This document shows positions 23,359-30,645 of a stretch of 64,000 nucleotides of DNA, in pieces. The notes beneath the pieces are model-generated. The model searched no databases. It saw nothing but the letters and a program-made list of their open reading frames with translations, and was not told the DNA's origin. Every line of letters begins with the position of its first letter. The stretch's first letter is position 1. A program made the translations under genes and the position numbers. Location: positions 1 through 64,000 of the forward strand of contig JAHBTI010000008.1 of assembly GCA_019638705.1 (NCBI GenBank), in the 5' to 3' direction. Source of the stretch: Bacteroidota bacterium (GTDB lineage: Bacteria > Bacteroidota > Bacteroidia > B-17B0 > Aurantibacillaceae).

Positions 23359-25275
23359 TTACTCTTTAATCAGAATAATGCTTTGTTGCCGTTCTTCGGA
23401 AACTGCTTTCATTAAATATTGCCCTGAACTTTGAGCGTTGAGATTAATCACATTTTCTCCTGATTTCACTTCTTGTTTCAAAACAACTTTTCCTTGAATA
23501 TCGTATATCAGCACAGTCATTTCTTTTTCTGTTTTTACGGTAAACTCGCCCTTACTCGGATTAGGGTAAACTATCCACTCTATACTTTTACCCTGTAATT
23601 CATTTACGCCCACACAGGCAAAAACCTGTACTGCCACAGTTGCTGTTTTTTCGCAGCCGCCGGTGTTTGTTCCGGTTACGGTATAAACAACAGTACCCGG
23701 TGGCGTGTTAGTAAAACTTACGGTAATTAAAGAAGCAGTTGCTCCGCTGCTCCATAAATAATCATCCGCCCCGTTTACTGTCAGGCTAACGGTTTCCGTT
23801 CTGCATACTTCGTTGCTGGAAACAGCGGCACTTGTTTTTGGCATGGAAAGTACCGTAAGCTGACACACCGCAGGAATGCCGGCACAACCGTCCACCGTAG
23901 AATTTACAGTATAATCATACACGCCCTCAGGTGGACTGACTACTTCAGCACCGCCTTGCGAATACACATAAATGCCCCCACCCGAAGGAGAAAGACTAAA
24001 ACTTTCGCCCGCGCAAATTTTGCCGGTATTTGCCGAAATAGTTGGTGTCGGTTTCACGGTTACTAACTTAACGGCAGTATTACTTGATAAACAGCCGTAG
24101 CTGCTTGTGCCGGTTAAAGAATAGGCGGTGGTGGCATCGGGTATAAATGTGTAAGAAGAAGCTGAAAACGTGATGCCGCCGGGCTCTAAGGTGTAATCTG
24201 CCGCACCCCCAACCGACATGGTTGCCGAGCCGCCCGAGCATACAGCCGAAGGATAAACAGACCAAATATTTACAACCGGTGCAGCAGCTGCGGTAACGTT
24301 TAAGGTTAATGGAAGCGAGGTAACACAATTATAAGGTGAGGGTGCGGTATAAGTTGCCGTTACACTCAGCAGCCCCGAGCCGTTTACGGTGGTGCTTATT
24401 ATATCAGTACCGTTACCTGTTGTGCCTGTCCAGCTTCCGGGTGTTGTCCAGTTATACGCTGTTGCATTTGGCGTAGCAAGGGCATCTATGGTATAAGTAG
24501 CCGGTGTGCCCACACATAATATTGTAGGTCCTCCGATAGCCACCGGCGCGGGTGCGGGCGGCACGGGAATAAAACGCCAGGCATCGTTTACAGCCGTCCA
24601 TGAGGTATTGTTGCGTCCCGGCACGGCAGTTCCCATAGTTCCCGAAGCATTTTCAATGCCCTGGGTGCTGGTAGCATACGAGTCATTTAACGTAGCAACG
24701 GAATAGCTGTGTATTTCTATAACATTGCTTGTTTCATACAATACAATCTGCCCTGTGTTAAAATTAGTTGGAAATGAAAAAAAATAACCCGGCACACCGT
24801 CGTATGTTACTATAAACGTACGGTTAGGGGCTGTACCCACAGTAGTGTATGAAATAGAACCGTAAGTCGTGTAATCCATATCCGTTTGATTAAGAGCCAC
24901 CATGGCATTTGGGGCTGTTTGGCTCGGAAAGGACTGAACAGGGTCGGCATATCCGGTGGCTATGGCAGGTGTGCCATTGTTAAATTGAATAAAACCGTTG
25001 GTACATATCCAAACATCGGTATATGTGGTACAGTAGTAATCAAAATTAAAGCCTATGGGAATTAAAGGCGATACGCCGTCGTCAGGGTTTACGCCCGAGG
25101 GATTAAACGAAGAAAAGGGCGAAACTGAAAACGAAAGCGGTGACATAGTGTTGCCTGTCGGAAAAAGCGAATAACTGATAGGCATTACAGTATAATTGGA
25201 ACAAGCCGCCACACATTGCGCCTGACTTTGATAAAAAAAAGCCAAACCGCACACAGAGAGTAAAAATTTTTTCAT
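23359..25275 (-). CDS. secreted multi-domain protein with T9SS type A sorting domain
   Basis: 638 residues. Signal peptide ends SQAQ. The first ~230 residues form a beta-rich domain (VWICTNGFIQFNNG..., VIEIHSYSVATL) seen in surface proteins of Bacteroidota; then three or four Ig/PKD-like repeats, each with a pair of Cys and TY-x-x-x-TG ends; the last ~75 residues are the sorting domain (EWIVYPNPSKGEFTV...VINLNAQSSGQYLMK). Likely an adhesin or surface structural protein. No catalytic motif seen. Codon use resembles its neighbours. Confidence 0.85.
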   Translation of the reverse strand: MKKFLLSVCGLAFFYQSQAQCVAACSNYTVMPISYSLFPTGNTMSPLSFSVSPFSSFNPSGVNPDDGVSPLIPIGFNFDYYCTTYTDVWICTNGFIQFNNGTPAIATGYADPVQSFPSQTAPNAMVALNQTDMDYTTYGSISYTTVGTAPNRTFIVTYDGVPGYFFSFPTNFNTGQIVLYETSNVIEIHSYSVATLNDSYATSTQGIENASGTMGTAVPGRNNTSWTAVNDAWRFIPVPPAPAPVAIGGPTILCVGTPATYTIDALATPNATAYNWTTPGSWTGTTGNGTDIISTTVNGSGLLSVTATYTAPSPYNCVTSLPLTLNVTAAAAPVVNIWSVYPSAVCSGGSATMSVGGAADYTLEPGGITFSASSYTFIPDATTAYSLTGTSSYGCLSSNTAVKLVTVKPTPTISANTGKICAGESFSLSPSGGGIYVYSQGGAEVVSPPEGVYDYTVNSTVDGCAGIPAVCQLTVLSMPKTSAAVSSNEVCRTETVSLTVNGADDYLWSSGATASLITVSFTNTPPGTVVYTVTGTNTGGCEKTATVAVQVFACVGVNELQGKSIEWIVYPNPSKGEFTVKTEKEMTVLIYDIQGKVVLKQEVKSGENVINLNAQSSGQYLMKAVSEERQQSIILIKE

Positions 25276-25397
25276 AACAAAACGAATTATAAAGTTGAAA
25301 ACGCAAGGTAGAGATTTCCGCTTGTTTTTTTACGGATTTTAACATTTCAGAAAAAATTTAACATTTTTTTAATAAATTCCTTAACACTTTTTTGAGT

Positions 25398-25414
25398 TTG
25401 GCACGATATTTGCA
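25398..25414 (+). promoter_or_regulatory. sigma-54-type promoter
   Basis: TTGGCACG, 4 bases, TTGCA: the -24 GG is 25400-25401 and the -12 GC is 25412-25413, matching the YTGGCACG-N4-TTGCW consensus at every fixed position. The start codon at 25465 would leave a leader of about 40 bases. A one-mismatch TAnnTTTG box overlaps it, so sigma-54 control is likely, not proven. Confidence 0.65.
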
Positions 25415-25464: not shown

Positions 25465-28400
25465 ATGAACACAATTAAAAAAACGCTCTTGTTGTTTGCC
25501 GCTCTTGTAATAATCGGCAACAGTTTACAAGCACAAAATCAGGCATTTGAGCCTCAGCAAGCACCGCTTGACCCGGTGTATTTCCATGTCTTTGACAAGG
25601 ACTCGCTAAAGGGTTTTGACGAACCTGCCGCAAGAAAATATCTCCTTGACAACCAGTACTATGGGAGGGAAGTTGCGATAGCGATGTATCACCACAAACG
25701 GGAGTACATTAAGCAAAAGTACAACATTGTTTCAGCCCCTGTGCCGAGCAGCAATCACAGATTGCCTGTTGCCCGCACCGTAGTTGCAGGCTGCATCAAC
25801 GAAGATTTTGAAGCATCTGCTTCAGCATCAATTACTTCTTCCGGACAAATTGCAGGTTGGTCAGTTTTTTCGGGTTCAATTGTATCTTCGCAAAATCTTT
25901 GTAATATAGAGCCTGCTATGGGAGAGGCTACTGGTATTTCGGAGTTGATAGACTGTTCTGCTCCCGGAGGGTACATAGACCCGACCATAGGTCCTGCTTA
26001 CCCTCTTTATTCCGTATTTGGCTCGGGTGCACCCAATGCTAACGCGGCGGCGGTAAATCCGCAAGTATCCACTAATTTTTTCGGTAACAAAATTTTACGT
26101 TTAAACAACTATGGCGCCGGCAGTGATAATCAGGTTTGGGGAGGCAGTCACAAAAGCAAAGAAACGTTAGTTAAAACCTTTGCGGTAACACCTCAAAACG
26201 CTTTGTTCCGTTTTGCCTATATCTCGGTAATGGCACCCGGACACAGTTGCTGCGACGGCAGCGGTTCAAAATTAAATATGTATGCCAATGGTAATCCCAT
26301 TGCCTGCCCTGCTTTTTCCATTTATGCACCAAGCAGTTCCTGCTTAACCGGTAATGCCCAAGATGTTCAATATTATATTGGCGGTAGTGGTACTAACAGC
26401 GGTAATCCTTATAACCCTGCTACAAATAATGCTGGTGGTAATAATGTGTATAACAAATGGAGGATTATGTCGGTGGACTTAACGCAATACATTGGCGGAA
26501 ATGTTACGTTTGAACTGACTGCTTACGATTGTAATGTTGCCGGACACCTCGGCTATATATATGTTGATGCCCAATGCGGACCAATGACCATTACGGGCAA
26601 CGGTAAAGAATTTGAGACTACCATTGCCGTTACCCCAAGCGTGAACACCTGCGGTGCTTATGGTGCAACCTTGTGTGCCGCTGACGGTATGGAGTTTTAC
26701 GCATGGGCAGGACCGGGTTTACCTGCGGGTGCAGGTGTGCCAAGTCCCACCAACCAGTGTATCACCACTACCCTTTCTGCAACTTACACTTTGTACTTTA
26801 CACCTCCGGGCGCTTGCGGCACATTTACCCGCTTGGTGCAAACCACCGTTGGTAATCCGCCTGTATTGTTGGGAAGCAACGTACAGGCAAGTTGCGGACA
26901 AACCGTATCTACCGCAGCACTTCAAGCCAATGGTTCTCTTCTTGGCGCACCGGGTACTTATACCATTACCTGGAATCCGCCGCCCTCTGTTTCTTTAAGT
27001 CAAAATTCGCTCACGGGTACTTATCTCGTACCGCCGCCTATGGCACCTGCCACGCAGGTGACAGTTACAGCTATAGATACGATAGGTTGTTTTACCCATC
27101 TTTACTTCACCGTTAATCCTACCGTGCCCTTACCAACCTTTACCGTTTACCCGAGTGCGGGTACTATGAGCATTACCTGCGACAGACCCGTAGTGGATTT
27201 GGCGGCAGTTTCCAATTACACTTACGGTGCTTTAAATATTCACTGGGTGGGACCTAATGTGAACACAACAGGAACAGTAGCAAGTTTTGCTGCCCCCGGC
27301 AACGTTACCGTTACCGTAAAAGATGTTGCATTTACCTGTGCGGTAGATACGGTGCTTACCATAGGTATTAATACCGTTGCGCCTACCGCAAATGTTGCCC
27401 CTCCATTACAGCAAATAGATTGTTCCAACCCTTTTGTGCAAACCGTTACCTTAACAGCAACAGGTCCCATGGCAAGTAACCCCAATCTTATGCATGTGGT
27501 GTCTTCGTCTGTGCTCAGCGGTTCTATGGCTATTGGTACAGGCTCGCAGGCACTTTATAACCCTGTGGCACAAAACGGAACAAATGCTTATGATTACTGG
27601 CTGATAAACAGCGTTTCGGGTTGTTCGACTCATGCTACTTTTACTGTAACCACTTCCGCAGACTTCCCTACCTTCTCTATTTCCAGCACCGGAACTTTAT
27701 CGGGGCAAGGTAACTATACGGTGGGGTGCAGCCCCTCACACCATCTTAATGTGATAAACATTGTAAATCCAAATACAATGCCTATAAACGGCGGTGGTAT
27801 GAATTTTGGTTTCCTTCCTCCGGGCAGCACAAGTACGGTAACTAACATAGGACCTTCCCAGTCCACCGTTGTGAGTATCCCCGGAACATGGACGGTGTTG
27901 GTAAATGACATCAGCAACAATTGTATTGCCTTTGCTCCTGTTACCATTGTTCAGAACACCATATCGCCCGACAGGTCGGTAATAGTGCCGCTTCAAGTGT
28001 TAGATTGCTTCACACCAAGCATCACACTTATGGGACAAACCACCAACTCGGCGGCTGCGTTTGCATGGCTAATTCCGGGTGGGCAAACTCAACCGGGCGA
28101 AAACATTACCATAAACACCACTACCAACATTGCCAGCTCAATAATTGGCAACTACACGTTGGAAGTTACAGACCAGAATAACGGCTGCAAGAGCTACTCG
28201 GTAGTGCCTATGCAACAAAACCTGTACCGCCCTGTGCCTAAAATATCGGTAACAACCAATACCATTACCTGTACAACACCTACGTTACAGTTAAGCAACT
28301 CCAGCACAAGCGGCATAACGCCTGCTTCGGGTTTTGCAACAAATAAAATTATTCAGGTGCAATTATGGGACGGACCTTCGCCGCAGCAAACGGTAACAGA

Positions 28401-29316
28401 AATCAGCAGTTATGTAGCCGCTGTACCGGGTGTTTATACCATGACGGTGAAAGACCTTAACAACGGCTGTAACTCCACCACTACCCTGCAAATACAAGAC
28501 GGCAGAGTGTACCCTGTGTTTATTCCGTCTAATCCGTTTGTGCTGGACTGCGGTGCTAAAACAACAAGCATTTTCCCTGCCATTACAGCCAGCTTAGCAT
28601 ACACTTACTCGTGGTTTGGTCCGGAAACTAACACCTTTGTGGGTTCTACCACCAACAAAACAGTAAATGTATCTTCTACAGGTGAATATGCTGTGCTGGT
28701 TACTAATCCTACCAGCGGTTGTGCAACCACCGGCACCTTGCTGGTTGTGGACGGAAATCTTACAGGAGGTTTTATACCAAGCAAAACACATATTTATGCG
28801 GGCGAGGAAGTTGTTTTCACCAACACAACCACTTCATCGCTTGGCAACACCAGTATTACTTCTGTATGGAGTTACGGTAACGGTGATACAGACACCTACA
28901 CCGATATGACAAGTGGTCGCGTGAAATACACACAACCGGGTAAATACATGGTACTTTTATATACCACAAAAGGACCGGGTGAAGCTGTTAATTGCAGAGA
29001 TATAGATACTGCTTACATTACGGTAGATATTCCTTCTAAATTAGACGTACCGAACGTATTTACGCCAAACGGAGACGGTGTAAACGATGTGTTCTTCTTA
29101 AAAGCTGCCAACCTTATCAGCATAGAAATGGTTATTTATGACCGCTGGGGGCACATGGTGTATGAAGTAACCAGCGAAACAGGCAACATTGCCTGGGACG
29201 GTAAAAACATCTACGGCAAAGATGCTGCCGCAGGAACTTACTTCTATATCCTTAAAGCTAAAGGGAAAGACGATAAAGATTACGACCAAAAAGGAACTAT
29301 TACCTTAGCTCGCTAA
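25465..29316 (+). CDS. giant secreted protein with gliding-type C-terminal domain (CHU_C / T9SS type B)
   Basis: 1283 residues. The signal peptide (LLLFAALVIIGNSLQAQ) is followed by a ~130-residue N-terminal region and a jelly-roll-like domain with clustered Cys (GHSCCDGSGSK, AYDCNVAGHLGYIYVDAQCG). Eight or so Ig-like repeats follow, with NTI-T-CTTP-type motifs, then a PKD-like domain (GNGDTDTYTDMTS...YTQPGKYMVLLYT). The C-terminus has the gliding-associated signature VFTPNGDGVNDVF and IYDRWGHMVYE, used for T9SS export and surface attachment. Likely a giant adhesin. It has a sigma-54-type promoter and its own terminator. Confidence 0.9.
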   Translation: MNTIKKTLLLFAALVIIGNSLQAQNQAFEPQQAPLDPVYFHVFDKDSLKGFDEPAARKYLLDNQYYGREVAIAMYHHKREYIKQKYNIVSAPVPSSNHRLPVARTVVAGCINEDFEASASASITSSGQIAGWSVFSGSIVSSQNLCNIEPAMGEATGISELIDCSAPGGYIDPTIGPAYPLYSVFGSGAPNANAAAVNPQVSTNFFGNKILRLNNYGAGSDNQVWGGSHKSKETLVKTFAVTPQNALFRFAYISVMAPGHSCCDGSGSKLNMYANGNPIACPAFSIYAPSSSCLTGNAQDVQYYIGGSGTNSGNPYNPATNNAGGNNVYNKWRIMSVDLTQYIGGNVTFELTAYDCNVAGHLGYIYVDAQCGPMTITGNGKEFETTIAVTPSVNTCGAYGATLCAADGMEFYAWAGPGLPAGAGVPSPTNQCITTTLSATYTLYFTPPGACGTFTRLVQTTVGNPPVLLGSNVQASCGQTVSTAALQANGSLLGAPGTYTITWNPPPSVSLSQNSLTGTYLVPPPMAPATQVTVTAIDTIGCFTHLYFTVNPTVPLPTFTVYPSAGTMSITCDRPVVDLAAVSNYTYGALNIHWVGPNVNTTGTVASFAAPGNVTVTVKDVAFTCAVDTVLTIGINTVAPTANVAPPLQQIDCSNPFVQTVTLTATGPMASNPNLMHVVSSSVLSGSMAIGTGSQALYNPVAQNGTNAYDYWLINSVSGCSTHATFTVTTSADFPTFSISSTGTLSGQGNYTVGCSPSHHLNVINIVNPNTMPINGGGMNFGFLPPGSTSTVTNIGPSQSTVVSIPGTWTVLVNDISNNCIAFAPVTIVQNTISPDRSVIVPLQVLDCFTPSITLMGQTTNSAAAFAWLIPGGQTQPGENITINTTTNIASSIIGNYTLEVTDQNNGCKSYSVVPMQQNLYRPVPKISVTTNTITCTTPTLQLSNSSTSGITPASGFATNKIIQVQLWDGPSPQQTVTEISSYVAAVPGVYTMTVKDLNNGCNSTTTLQIQDGRVYPVFIPSNPFVLDCGAKTTSIFPAITASLAYTYSWFGPETNTFVGSTTNKTVNVSSTGEYAVLVTNPTSGCATTGTLLVVDGNLTGGFIPSKTHIYAGEEVVFTNTTTSSLGNTSITSVWSYGNGDTDTYTDMTSGRVKYTQPGKYMVLLYTTKGPGEAVNCRDIDTAYITVDIPSKLDVPNVFTPNGDGVNDVFFLKAANLISIEMVIYDRWGHMVYEVTSETGNIAWDGKNIYGKDAAAGTYFYILKAKGKDDKDYDQKGTITLAR

Positions 29317-29451: not shown

Positions 29452-30645
29452 ATGAACATTCACGAATATCAAGGAAAAAGCATTTTAAAAAGTTTTGGCG
29501 TGGCAGTGCAAGAAGGCATTGTAGCCGAAACTACTGAACAAGCCGCCGCTGCCGCAAAACAAATTATGGACACTTATAAATGCGACGGCGTGGTGGTTAA
29601 AGCCCAAATTCACGCGGGCGGACGCGGCAAAGGCGGTGGCGTAAAATTTGCTCCAAGTTTGGATAAAGCAAAAGAAGTTGCTTCCAACATTATAGGTATG
29701 CAGTTAATTACACCTCAAACATCAAAAGAGGGTAAAAAAGTGCATAAAGTATTAGTAGCGCAAGATGTGTATTACAAAGGTGCAAACGAACCAAAAGAAT
29801 TTTATATGAGTGTGCTGCTTGACCGTGCCAAAGGGCGCAATACCATTGTGTACAGCACCGAAGGCGGTATGGATATTGAACACGTTGCCGAACACACCCC
29901 CGAAAAAATCTGGAAAGAAGAAATAGACCCCCGCGTGGGCTTGCAAGGATTTCAGGCACGCAAAATTGCCTTTAATTTGGGCTTGAGCGGAAACGCGCAC
30001 AAAGACATGGTGAAATTTGTCAATTCACTTTACAAAGCCTACGAAAGCATTGATGCCTCTTTGTTTGAAATTAATCCTGTACTAAAAACTTCTGACGACA
30101 AAATTATTGCGGTGGACAGCAAAGTAACCTTTGACGACAATGCTTTGTACCGCCACCCTGATTATGCTGCCATGCGCGACATTACCGAAGAAGACCCGAC
30201 AGATGTGGAAGCAAGAAATGCTGAACTGAACTATGTGAAATTAGACGGCAACGTGGGTTGTATGGTAAACGGCGCAGGTTTGGCAATGGCTACCATGGAC
30301 ATTATTAAACTGAGCGGCGGCGAACCTGCCAACTTTTTAGATGTGGGCGGCACAGCCAATGCAGAGCGTGTTGAAAAAGCATTTCGCATTATTTTAAAAG
30401 ACAAAAACGTAAAAGCTATTTTGGTAAATATTTTTGGCGGCATTGTGCGTTGCGACCGTGTGGCGCAAGGCATTGTGGACGCATACAAAAATATGGGCAA
30501 TATTGAAGTGCCGATTATTGTGCGCCTGCAAGGCACAAACGCCGATTTGGCTAAAAAACTCATTGACGAGTCAGGTTTAAAAGTATATTCGGCAATTGAA
30601 TTTCACGAAGCAGCCGCTTTGGTAAACAAACTATTAAAAGCATAA
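29452..30645 (+). CDS. sucC: succinyl-CoA ligase (ADP-forming) beta subunit
   Basis: 397 residues, full length. ATP-grasp and CoA-ligase features: MNIHEYQGKSILKSFGV, AGGRGKGGGVKFA near residue 50, NGAGLAMATMDIIK near residue 274, DVGGTANAERVEKAF near residue 300, and NIFGGIVRCDRVA near residue 326. It couples succinyl-CoA cleavage to ATP synthesis in the TCA cycle. The alpha subunit gene (sucD) is not beside it, which is common in Bacteroidota. Confidence 0.95.
   Translation: MNIHEYQGKSILKSFGVAVQEGIVAETTEQAAAAAKQIMDTYKCDGVVVKAQIHAGGRGKGGGVKFAPSLDKAKEVASNIIGMQLITPQTSKEGKKVHKVLVAQDVYYKGANEPKEFYMSVLLDRAKGRNTIVYSTEGGMDIEHVAEHTPEKIWKEEIDPRVGLQGFQARKIAFNLGLSGNAHKDMVKFVNSLYKAYESIDASLFEINPVLKTSDDKIIAVDSKVTFDDNALYRHPDYAAMRDITEEDPTDVEARNAELNYVKLDGNVGCMVNGAGLAMATMDIIKLSGGEPANFLDVGGTANAERVEKAFRIILKDKNVKAILVNIFGGIVRCDRVAQGIVDAYKNMGNIEVPIIVRLQGTNADLAKKLIDESGLKVYSAIEFHEAAALVNKLLKA

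Follow-up and report, generated by a model that had tools for sequence, protein, structure and literature searches.

The motif at positions 25398-25414 of the window (the whole 64,000-nucleotide stretch of DNA analyzed here) is very probably a true sigma-54 (RpoN) promoter for the gene of a 1283-aa T9SS surface protein, one of about eight secreted-protein genes that make up a small regulon. RNA polymerase carrying sigma-54 would bind the -24 and -12 elements and wait as a closed complex, which an AAA+ enhancer-binding protein (EBP) would then remodel. The likeliest remodeller would be a PspF-like EBP (an AAA domain and a Fis-type HTH, with no receiver) encoded beside lptE and secG, which may bind TTAACA-type boxes close upstream of the -24 element and might act at the groES promoter as well.

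The probable promoter element and its conservation in the genus

Read from the sequence, the motif TTGGCACGATATTTGCA ends 50 bases before the ATG at 25465. Its GG at -25/-24 and its GC at -13/-12, separated by a 10-base gap, account for all sigma-54 promoter positions, so the consensus fit seen at this place in the preliminary description held up. A motif scan of the window returned exactly one perfect match to TGGCACG-N4-TTGCA.

25397..25404, + strand: -24 element TTTGGCAC, GG at 25400-25401 (from the sequence and orthologue conservation)
25410..25414, + strand: -12 element TTGCA, GC at 25412-25413 (from the sequence and orthologue conservation)
25425, + strand: expected transcription start, predicted from the -24/-12 geometry with C25413 taken as -12
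25465..29316, + strand: gene of the 1283-aa secreted protein, with a signal-peptide-like N-terminus and a T9SS type B (CHU_C / TIGR04131) domain at residues 1194-1283

The 160 bases upstream of the 22 best orthologues examined in the genus, from 22 species, were scanned for the same element. TGGYAY-N5-TTG was found once per upstream region in all 22, at 45-82 bases before the ATG, and the stricter TTTGGYAY-N5-TTG in 20 of them. TGG and A of the -24 element are invariant, its two C positions being C or T, and the TTG of the -12 element is likewise invariant. Pairwise identity across species was 0.92 in the motif, against 0.39 in its spacer, 0.37 in the upstream flank, and 0.42 in the downstream flank. 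In dinucleotide-shuffled upstream regions, a mean of 0.02 (strict) or 0.065 (loose) sequences per set of 22 carried the pattern, and rpoN-locus sequence contained the strict pattern once in 197 kb, both strands counted, or 0.0008 per 160 nt; as the 22 species are related, so that counts are not independent events, and as the pattern was refined on the same data, these figures are effect sizes and not p-values. Because it is conserved across species, the site is real beyond a bare match.

No TAnnTTTG box was found on the + strand between the 1283-aa-protein gene and its neighbour. The earlier statement that nearly all other promoters of the window are of the TAnnTTTG type went too far: 10 of the 25 upstream regions of at least 60 bases have one, where about 3 are expected. 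On the minus strand, TACCTTGC at 25303-25310, upstream of the divergent gene at 23359-25275, fits the SM5 class TAnnTTGY known from F. psychrophilum.

The 1283-aa protein and its neighbours

The C-terminal domain of the protein was recognized as PF13585 (E=1.2e-19) and scored above the cut-off for TIGR04131, and its N-terminus, as read from the translation, is hydrophobic and signal-peptide-like. The protein combines the C-terminal sorting domain and the N-terminal signal sequence of T9SS type B cargo; CHU_C is the only domain that Pfam gives, with no other recognized in it. An AlphaFold model of the N-terminal region, built from two sequences, had a mean pLDDT of 36 and was unusable.

Downstream on the same strand lies a sucC-like gene (29452-30645), and a 189-base intergenic region is common to the 1283-aa-protein gene and the divergent gene at 23359-25275, which encodes a T9SS type A protein. 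No activator gene adjoins the 1283-aa-protein gene. The label of a giant gliding-type protein could not be kept, since 1283 aa is not giant and the type B sorting domain marks secretion, not gliding. SprB-type gliding adhesins are very large proteins with repeats, encoded in sprCDBF-like operons and needed for gliding, and the 1283-aa protein does not fit this type; with a length that is not giant and a sucC-like downstream neighbour, nothing ties it to gliding.

A small set of secreted-protein genes with the same promoter motif

The genome was searched with TTTGGCACGNTNTTTGCA, allowing up to three mismatches, and the context was read for the best 30 matches. Ten of these have no more than two mismatches, stand in promoter position, and share the strand of the gene that follows; eight of the ten precede signal-peptide-like starts, and seven of these eight genes encode curated T9SS tails (four type B, three type A), several of the seven proteins also having PKD, Ig, fn3, or laminin-G-like domains.

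Sites before the eight secreted-protein genes: C20:12663, C24:19877, C47:25397 (window), C6:17358, C23:62514, C8:9247, C30:14723, C46:80374

The eighth gene, on C46 (L117 12033-14343), lacks a curated T9SS tail and is split into ORFs of 124 aa and 534 aa, either a broken gene or an assembly error. Of the remaining two sites, one lies before an Xre-type HTH gene and the other before a helicase gene.

As the genome holds about 140 type A and 40 type B tails (~180), the promoter marks a small subset of T9SS cargo. Two C19 paralogues and one C38 paralogue had no site with up to three mismatches in the stretches read, and the promoter has therefore not simply been copied with the family. The proposal to look for the motif before other large secreted proteins was thus fruitful, with about seven further secreted-protein genes found. 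The idea of a separate switch for this adhesin did not survive, the promoter being common to those genes and relaxed versions of it standing before groES.

RpoN, enhancer-binding proteins, and promoter-proximal boxes

RpoN is single, full-length, and canonical in this genome, with AID, CBD, and DBD and the RpoN box ARRTIAKYR. It keeps the Arg aligned to R383 of E. coli RpoN, a residue involved in -12 recognition. The rpoN gene was found in all 41 genomes searched, and a second match to the sigma-54 DNA-binding domain, in most cases full length, was seen in about ten species of the genus; the genome under study has one rpoN. The preliminary description had advised a search for rpoN and EBP genes and had named a missing rpoN as grounds for giving up the sigma-54 reading. 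The search yielded the canonical RpoN and PF00158 EBPs, so that this objection falls away.

Three proteins of the genome have strong PF00158 domains:

Contig 1 (C1:368272): REC-AAA without HTH, GSFTNA replacing GAFTGA
Contig 18: REC-AAA-HTH with GAFTGA
Contig 34: AAA-HTH (Fis-type) with GAFTGA but lacking a receiver; lptE-like, TPR, and secG-like genes come next

The contig 18 and contig 34 proteins, both with GAFTGA, are two textbook EBPs. The listings for five relatives (G002, G004, G008, G014, and G015) each show just two strong PF00158 proteins. Both were read in G008: one is a REC-AAA protein without HTH and with GAFTSA (L121 8039-9190), and the other is an AAA-HTH protein with GAFTGA, beside lptE. 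For the other four, frame lengths suggest these two types. All five keep the window-type promoter, G004, G008, and G014 before the orthologue and G002 and G015 before an N-terminally related gene. Frame lengths suggest that most relatives have the HTH-less REC-AAA protein, whose role as a sigma-54 activator is doubtful. By elimination, since a single EBP combining GAFTGA with an HTH is left in some relatives, the lptE-linked PspF-like EBP is the best candidate and would be the likeliest activator, with confidence that we put at about evenly balanced. In genome G026, from another family, the gene order (C79) is miaB-EBP-lptE-TPR-secG-groES, which links the receiver-less EBP to groES.

Three TTAACA boxes lie upstream of the window copy:

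25381..25386, + strand: TTAACA box 1, 18 bases upstream of TGG, of a type conserved in orthologues
25358..25363, + strand: TTAACA box 2, 41 bases upstream of TGG
25339..25344, + strand: TTAACA box 3, 60 bases upstream of TGG

Each of the 22 orthologue promoters has TTAACA, TTTACA, or TTCACA upstream of TGG, at a distance of 11 or 18-19 bases, and TTAACA at 18-19 bases was also found in the promoters of five further gene families. Within the genome under study, TTAAC or TTTACA lies within 20 bases of TGG in six of the eight regulon members, the window copy included, less regularly than in the orthologues. At the motif copy of the 134-aa Xre-type HTH gene (C44:40888-40905, minus strand), three TTCACA boxes precede TGG by 32, 53, and 74 bases, at exact 21-base intervals.

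The upstream activating sequence of sigma-54 promoters lies about 100-150 bp upstream (PMC7057263). No distal enhancer at -100 to -150 was recognized here from column conservation over ~100 bases upstream, the conserved boxes being promoter-proximal instead. These boxes may be EBP sites, IHF/HU-like sites, or an operator.

A serious though less probable alternative keeps the sigma-54 promoter and departs from the preferred explanation in the activator and the box only: the contig 18 REC-AAA-HTH protein (or the contig 1 REC-AAA protein) would activate in answer to a two-component signal, and the boxes would be IHF/HU-like or repressor sites. The contig 18 protein has the GAFTGA, REC, and HTH that such a role calls for, and TGTTAA, the reverse complement of the box, lies 22-24 bases after TGG in 10 of the 22 species, which would give an operator-like flanking pair. 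However, a protein of the contig 18 type is absent among the strong matches listed for the five relatives named above, where the promoter is kept, and the contig 1 protein is without HTH and has GSFTNA for GAFTGA. The contig 18 EBP could still take part in this species.

A relaxed -12 element and the groES promoters

The C of the -12 element is normally strongly conserved in sigma-54 promoters. The window copy has it (TTGC), but the base after TTG in the 22 orthologue promoters is A in 12, T in 9, and C in 1. The relaxation came to notice because a groES scan with a TTG-type -12 element missed most sites; with TGGYAY-N5-NTG, the promoter was found before groES in all 21 genus members. The base at the -12 C position of these promoters is A in 13, C in 7, and G in 1, and the groES promoters of related families look similar at -12. 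Most of these promoters, 21 of the 22 before orthologues and 14 of the 21 before groES, would escape a search with TTGC, the usual -12 consensus, as they lack the C.

The groES promoters have their own boxes. None of the 21 in the genus has TTAACA, TTTACA, or TTCACA within 45 bases. Class-wide, groES upstream regions (L173-L211) have TGGYAY-N5-NTG and, in many cases, TTTGWC ~30 bases before GG; in other families this box lies near 19-21, 38-42, or 51, spacings that are close to helical turns.

That the -12 C is not conserved in the relatives might point to another sigma factor, either of the ECF type or a variant of sigma-A like the SM5 class (TAnnTTGY), acting at a site that only resembles -24/-12, and in two orthologues (G017 and G018) TATATTTG, a sigma-A -7 box, falls within the motif. 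We consider this reading improbable, as TGG, A, and TTG are invariant at exactly the sigma-54 spacing and no TAnnTTTG was found at one position common to the orthologue upstream regions. The same relaxed form also stands before groES, which is reported to depend on sigma-54 in Flavobacterium psychrophilum (PMC9723704) and in Bacteroides thetaiotaomicron (PMC12316311). Given a -12 C relaxed both in the orthologues and at groES, with its reported sigma-54 dependence, either the sigma-54 of this lineage tolerates other bases at -12 or these promoters are weak and lean on their activator. The relaxed -12 may not be new, since the F. psychrophilum SM4 logo (PMC9723704) may already show it.

A broader and distinctly tentative proposal is that sigma-54 promoters of this lineage require the G but not the C at -12, that a helically phased proximal box (TTTTRAC / TTTTGWC) is bound by a single PspF-like activator, and that one envelope-stress input thereby reaches both the chaperone genes and a few genes of T9SS surface proteins.

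Bare consensus matches in the genome

The chance expectation of ~0.03 first given, taken for a bare 11-base match in 128 kb, was of the correct order, yet such a match is weak evidence genome-wide. Across the 3.22-Mb genome, TTGGCAC-N5-TTGC has 12 matches vs 4 for the reversed pattern, and TGGCAY-N5-TTGC has 28 vs 19 for the control; counting bare consensus matches was rejected as promoter evidence because it does not discriminate. Nine of the 12 exact matches lie inside genes or in a repeat, and a bare consensus match is therefore weak evidence in this genome. The three that are intergenic and in promoter position (C20:12664, C24:19878, and the window copy) have the whole core TTTGGCACGATATTTGCA in common. 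"Intergenic" refers here to a start-codon-aware test, under which true sites can fall in the open extension of a downstream gene; four sites whose frame is continuous with that of the downstream gene were assessed by eye. C3:5046 and C20:18600 are near-identical copies of a repeat (TCTCGATAACGCTTACGCCATAGCTTCAGCGTTGGCAC...) with a perfect -24/-12 match and were set aside from the promoter count. One of these copies lies 117 bases upstream of an ORF, where a promoter is possible.

That the window site is a functionless chance match to the consensus, as the nine intragenic or repeat matches might suggest, is highly implausible, for it is contradicted by the 22 of 22 orthologue promoters, their narrow position range, their strongly diverged flanks, and the concentration of sites before T9SS genes.

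Comparison with known systems

Control of this kind is already known for the SprB operon. Start-site mapping in the related fish pathogen F. psychrophilum (PMC9723704) placed a sigma-54 motif, SM4, ahead of genes for chaperones and exported proteins and ahead of the remFG-sprCDBF gliding operon, whose SM4 promoter was confirmed by reporter mutagenesis. As in that operon, a sigma-54-type promoter precedes genes of T9SS-secreted surface proteins of a Bacteroidota member here. The two differ in that the F. psychrophilum case is a true SprB gliding operon with an SM5 promoter as well, whereas here the product is a non-SprB T9SS type B protein of 1283 aa, no TAnnTTTG was seen, a TTAACA-type box is conserved, and about seven other cargo genes have the promoter too.

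The same study gives F. psychrophilum one sigma-54 and three PF00158 proteins, and describes one SM5 promoter before a sigma-54 regulator-lptE pair, a pair that matches the EBP-lptE context found here. PspF-type EBPs have no N-terminal regulatory domain (PMC7057263); the lptE-linked EBP resembles them in its AAA domain, Fis HTH, GAFTGA, and lack of a receiver, but lies in a different genome context, miaB-EBP-lptE-TPR-secG, to which groES is added in another family, and has a long linker before the HTH.

Sigma-54 control of the chaperone genes groES, grpE, and dnaK in Bacteroidota is described in PMC9723704 and PMC12316311. The groES genes of the genus are like these in having TGGYAY-N5-NTG with a relaxed -12 element, and differ from the window-gene type in often having TTTGWC ~30 bases from GG, not TTAACA at ~19. 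Relative to the SprB operon of PMC9723704, the promoters described here point to one more conserved regulon, with promoter details of its own. With them, sigma-54 control of T9SS surface proteins would reach beyond the single tested operon of a flavobacterium to a regulon conserved in a different Bacteroidia genus, for which they supply a concrete activator candidate and box.
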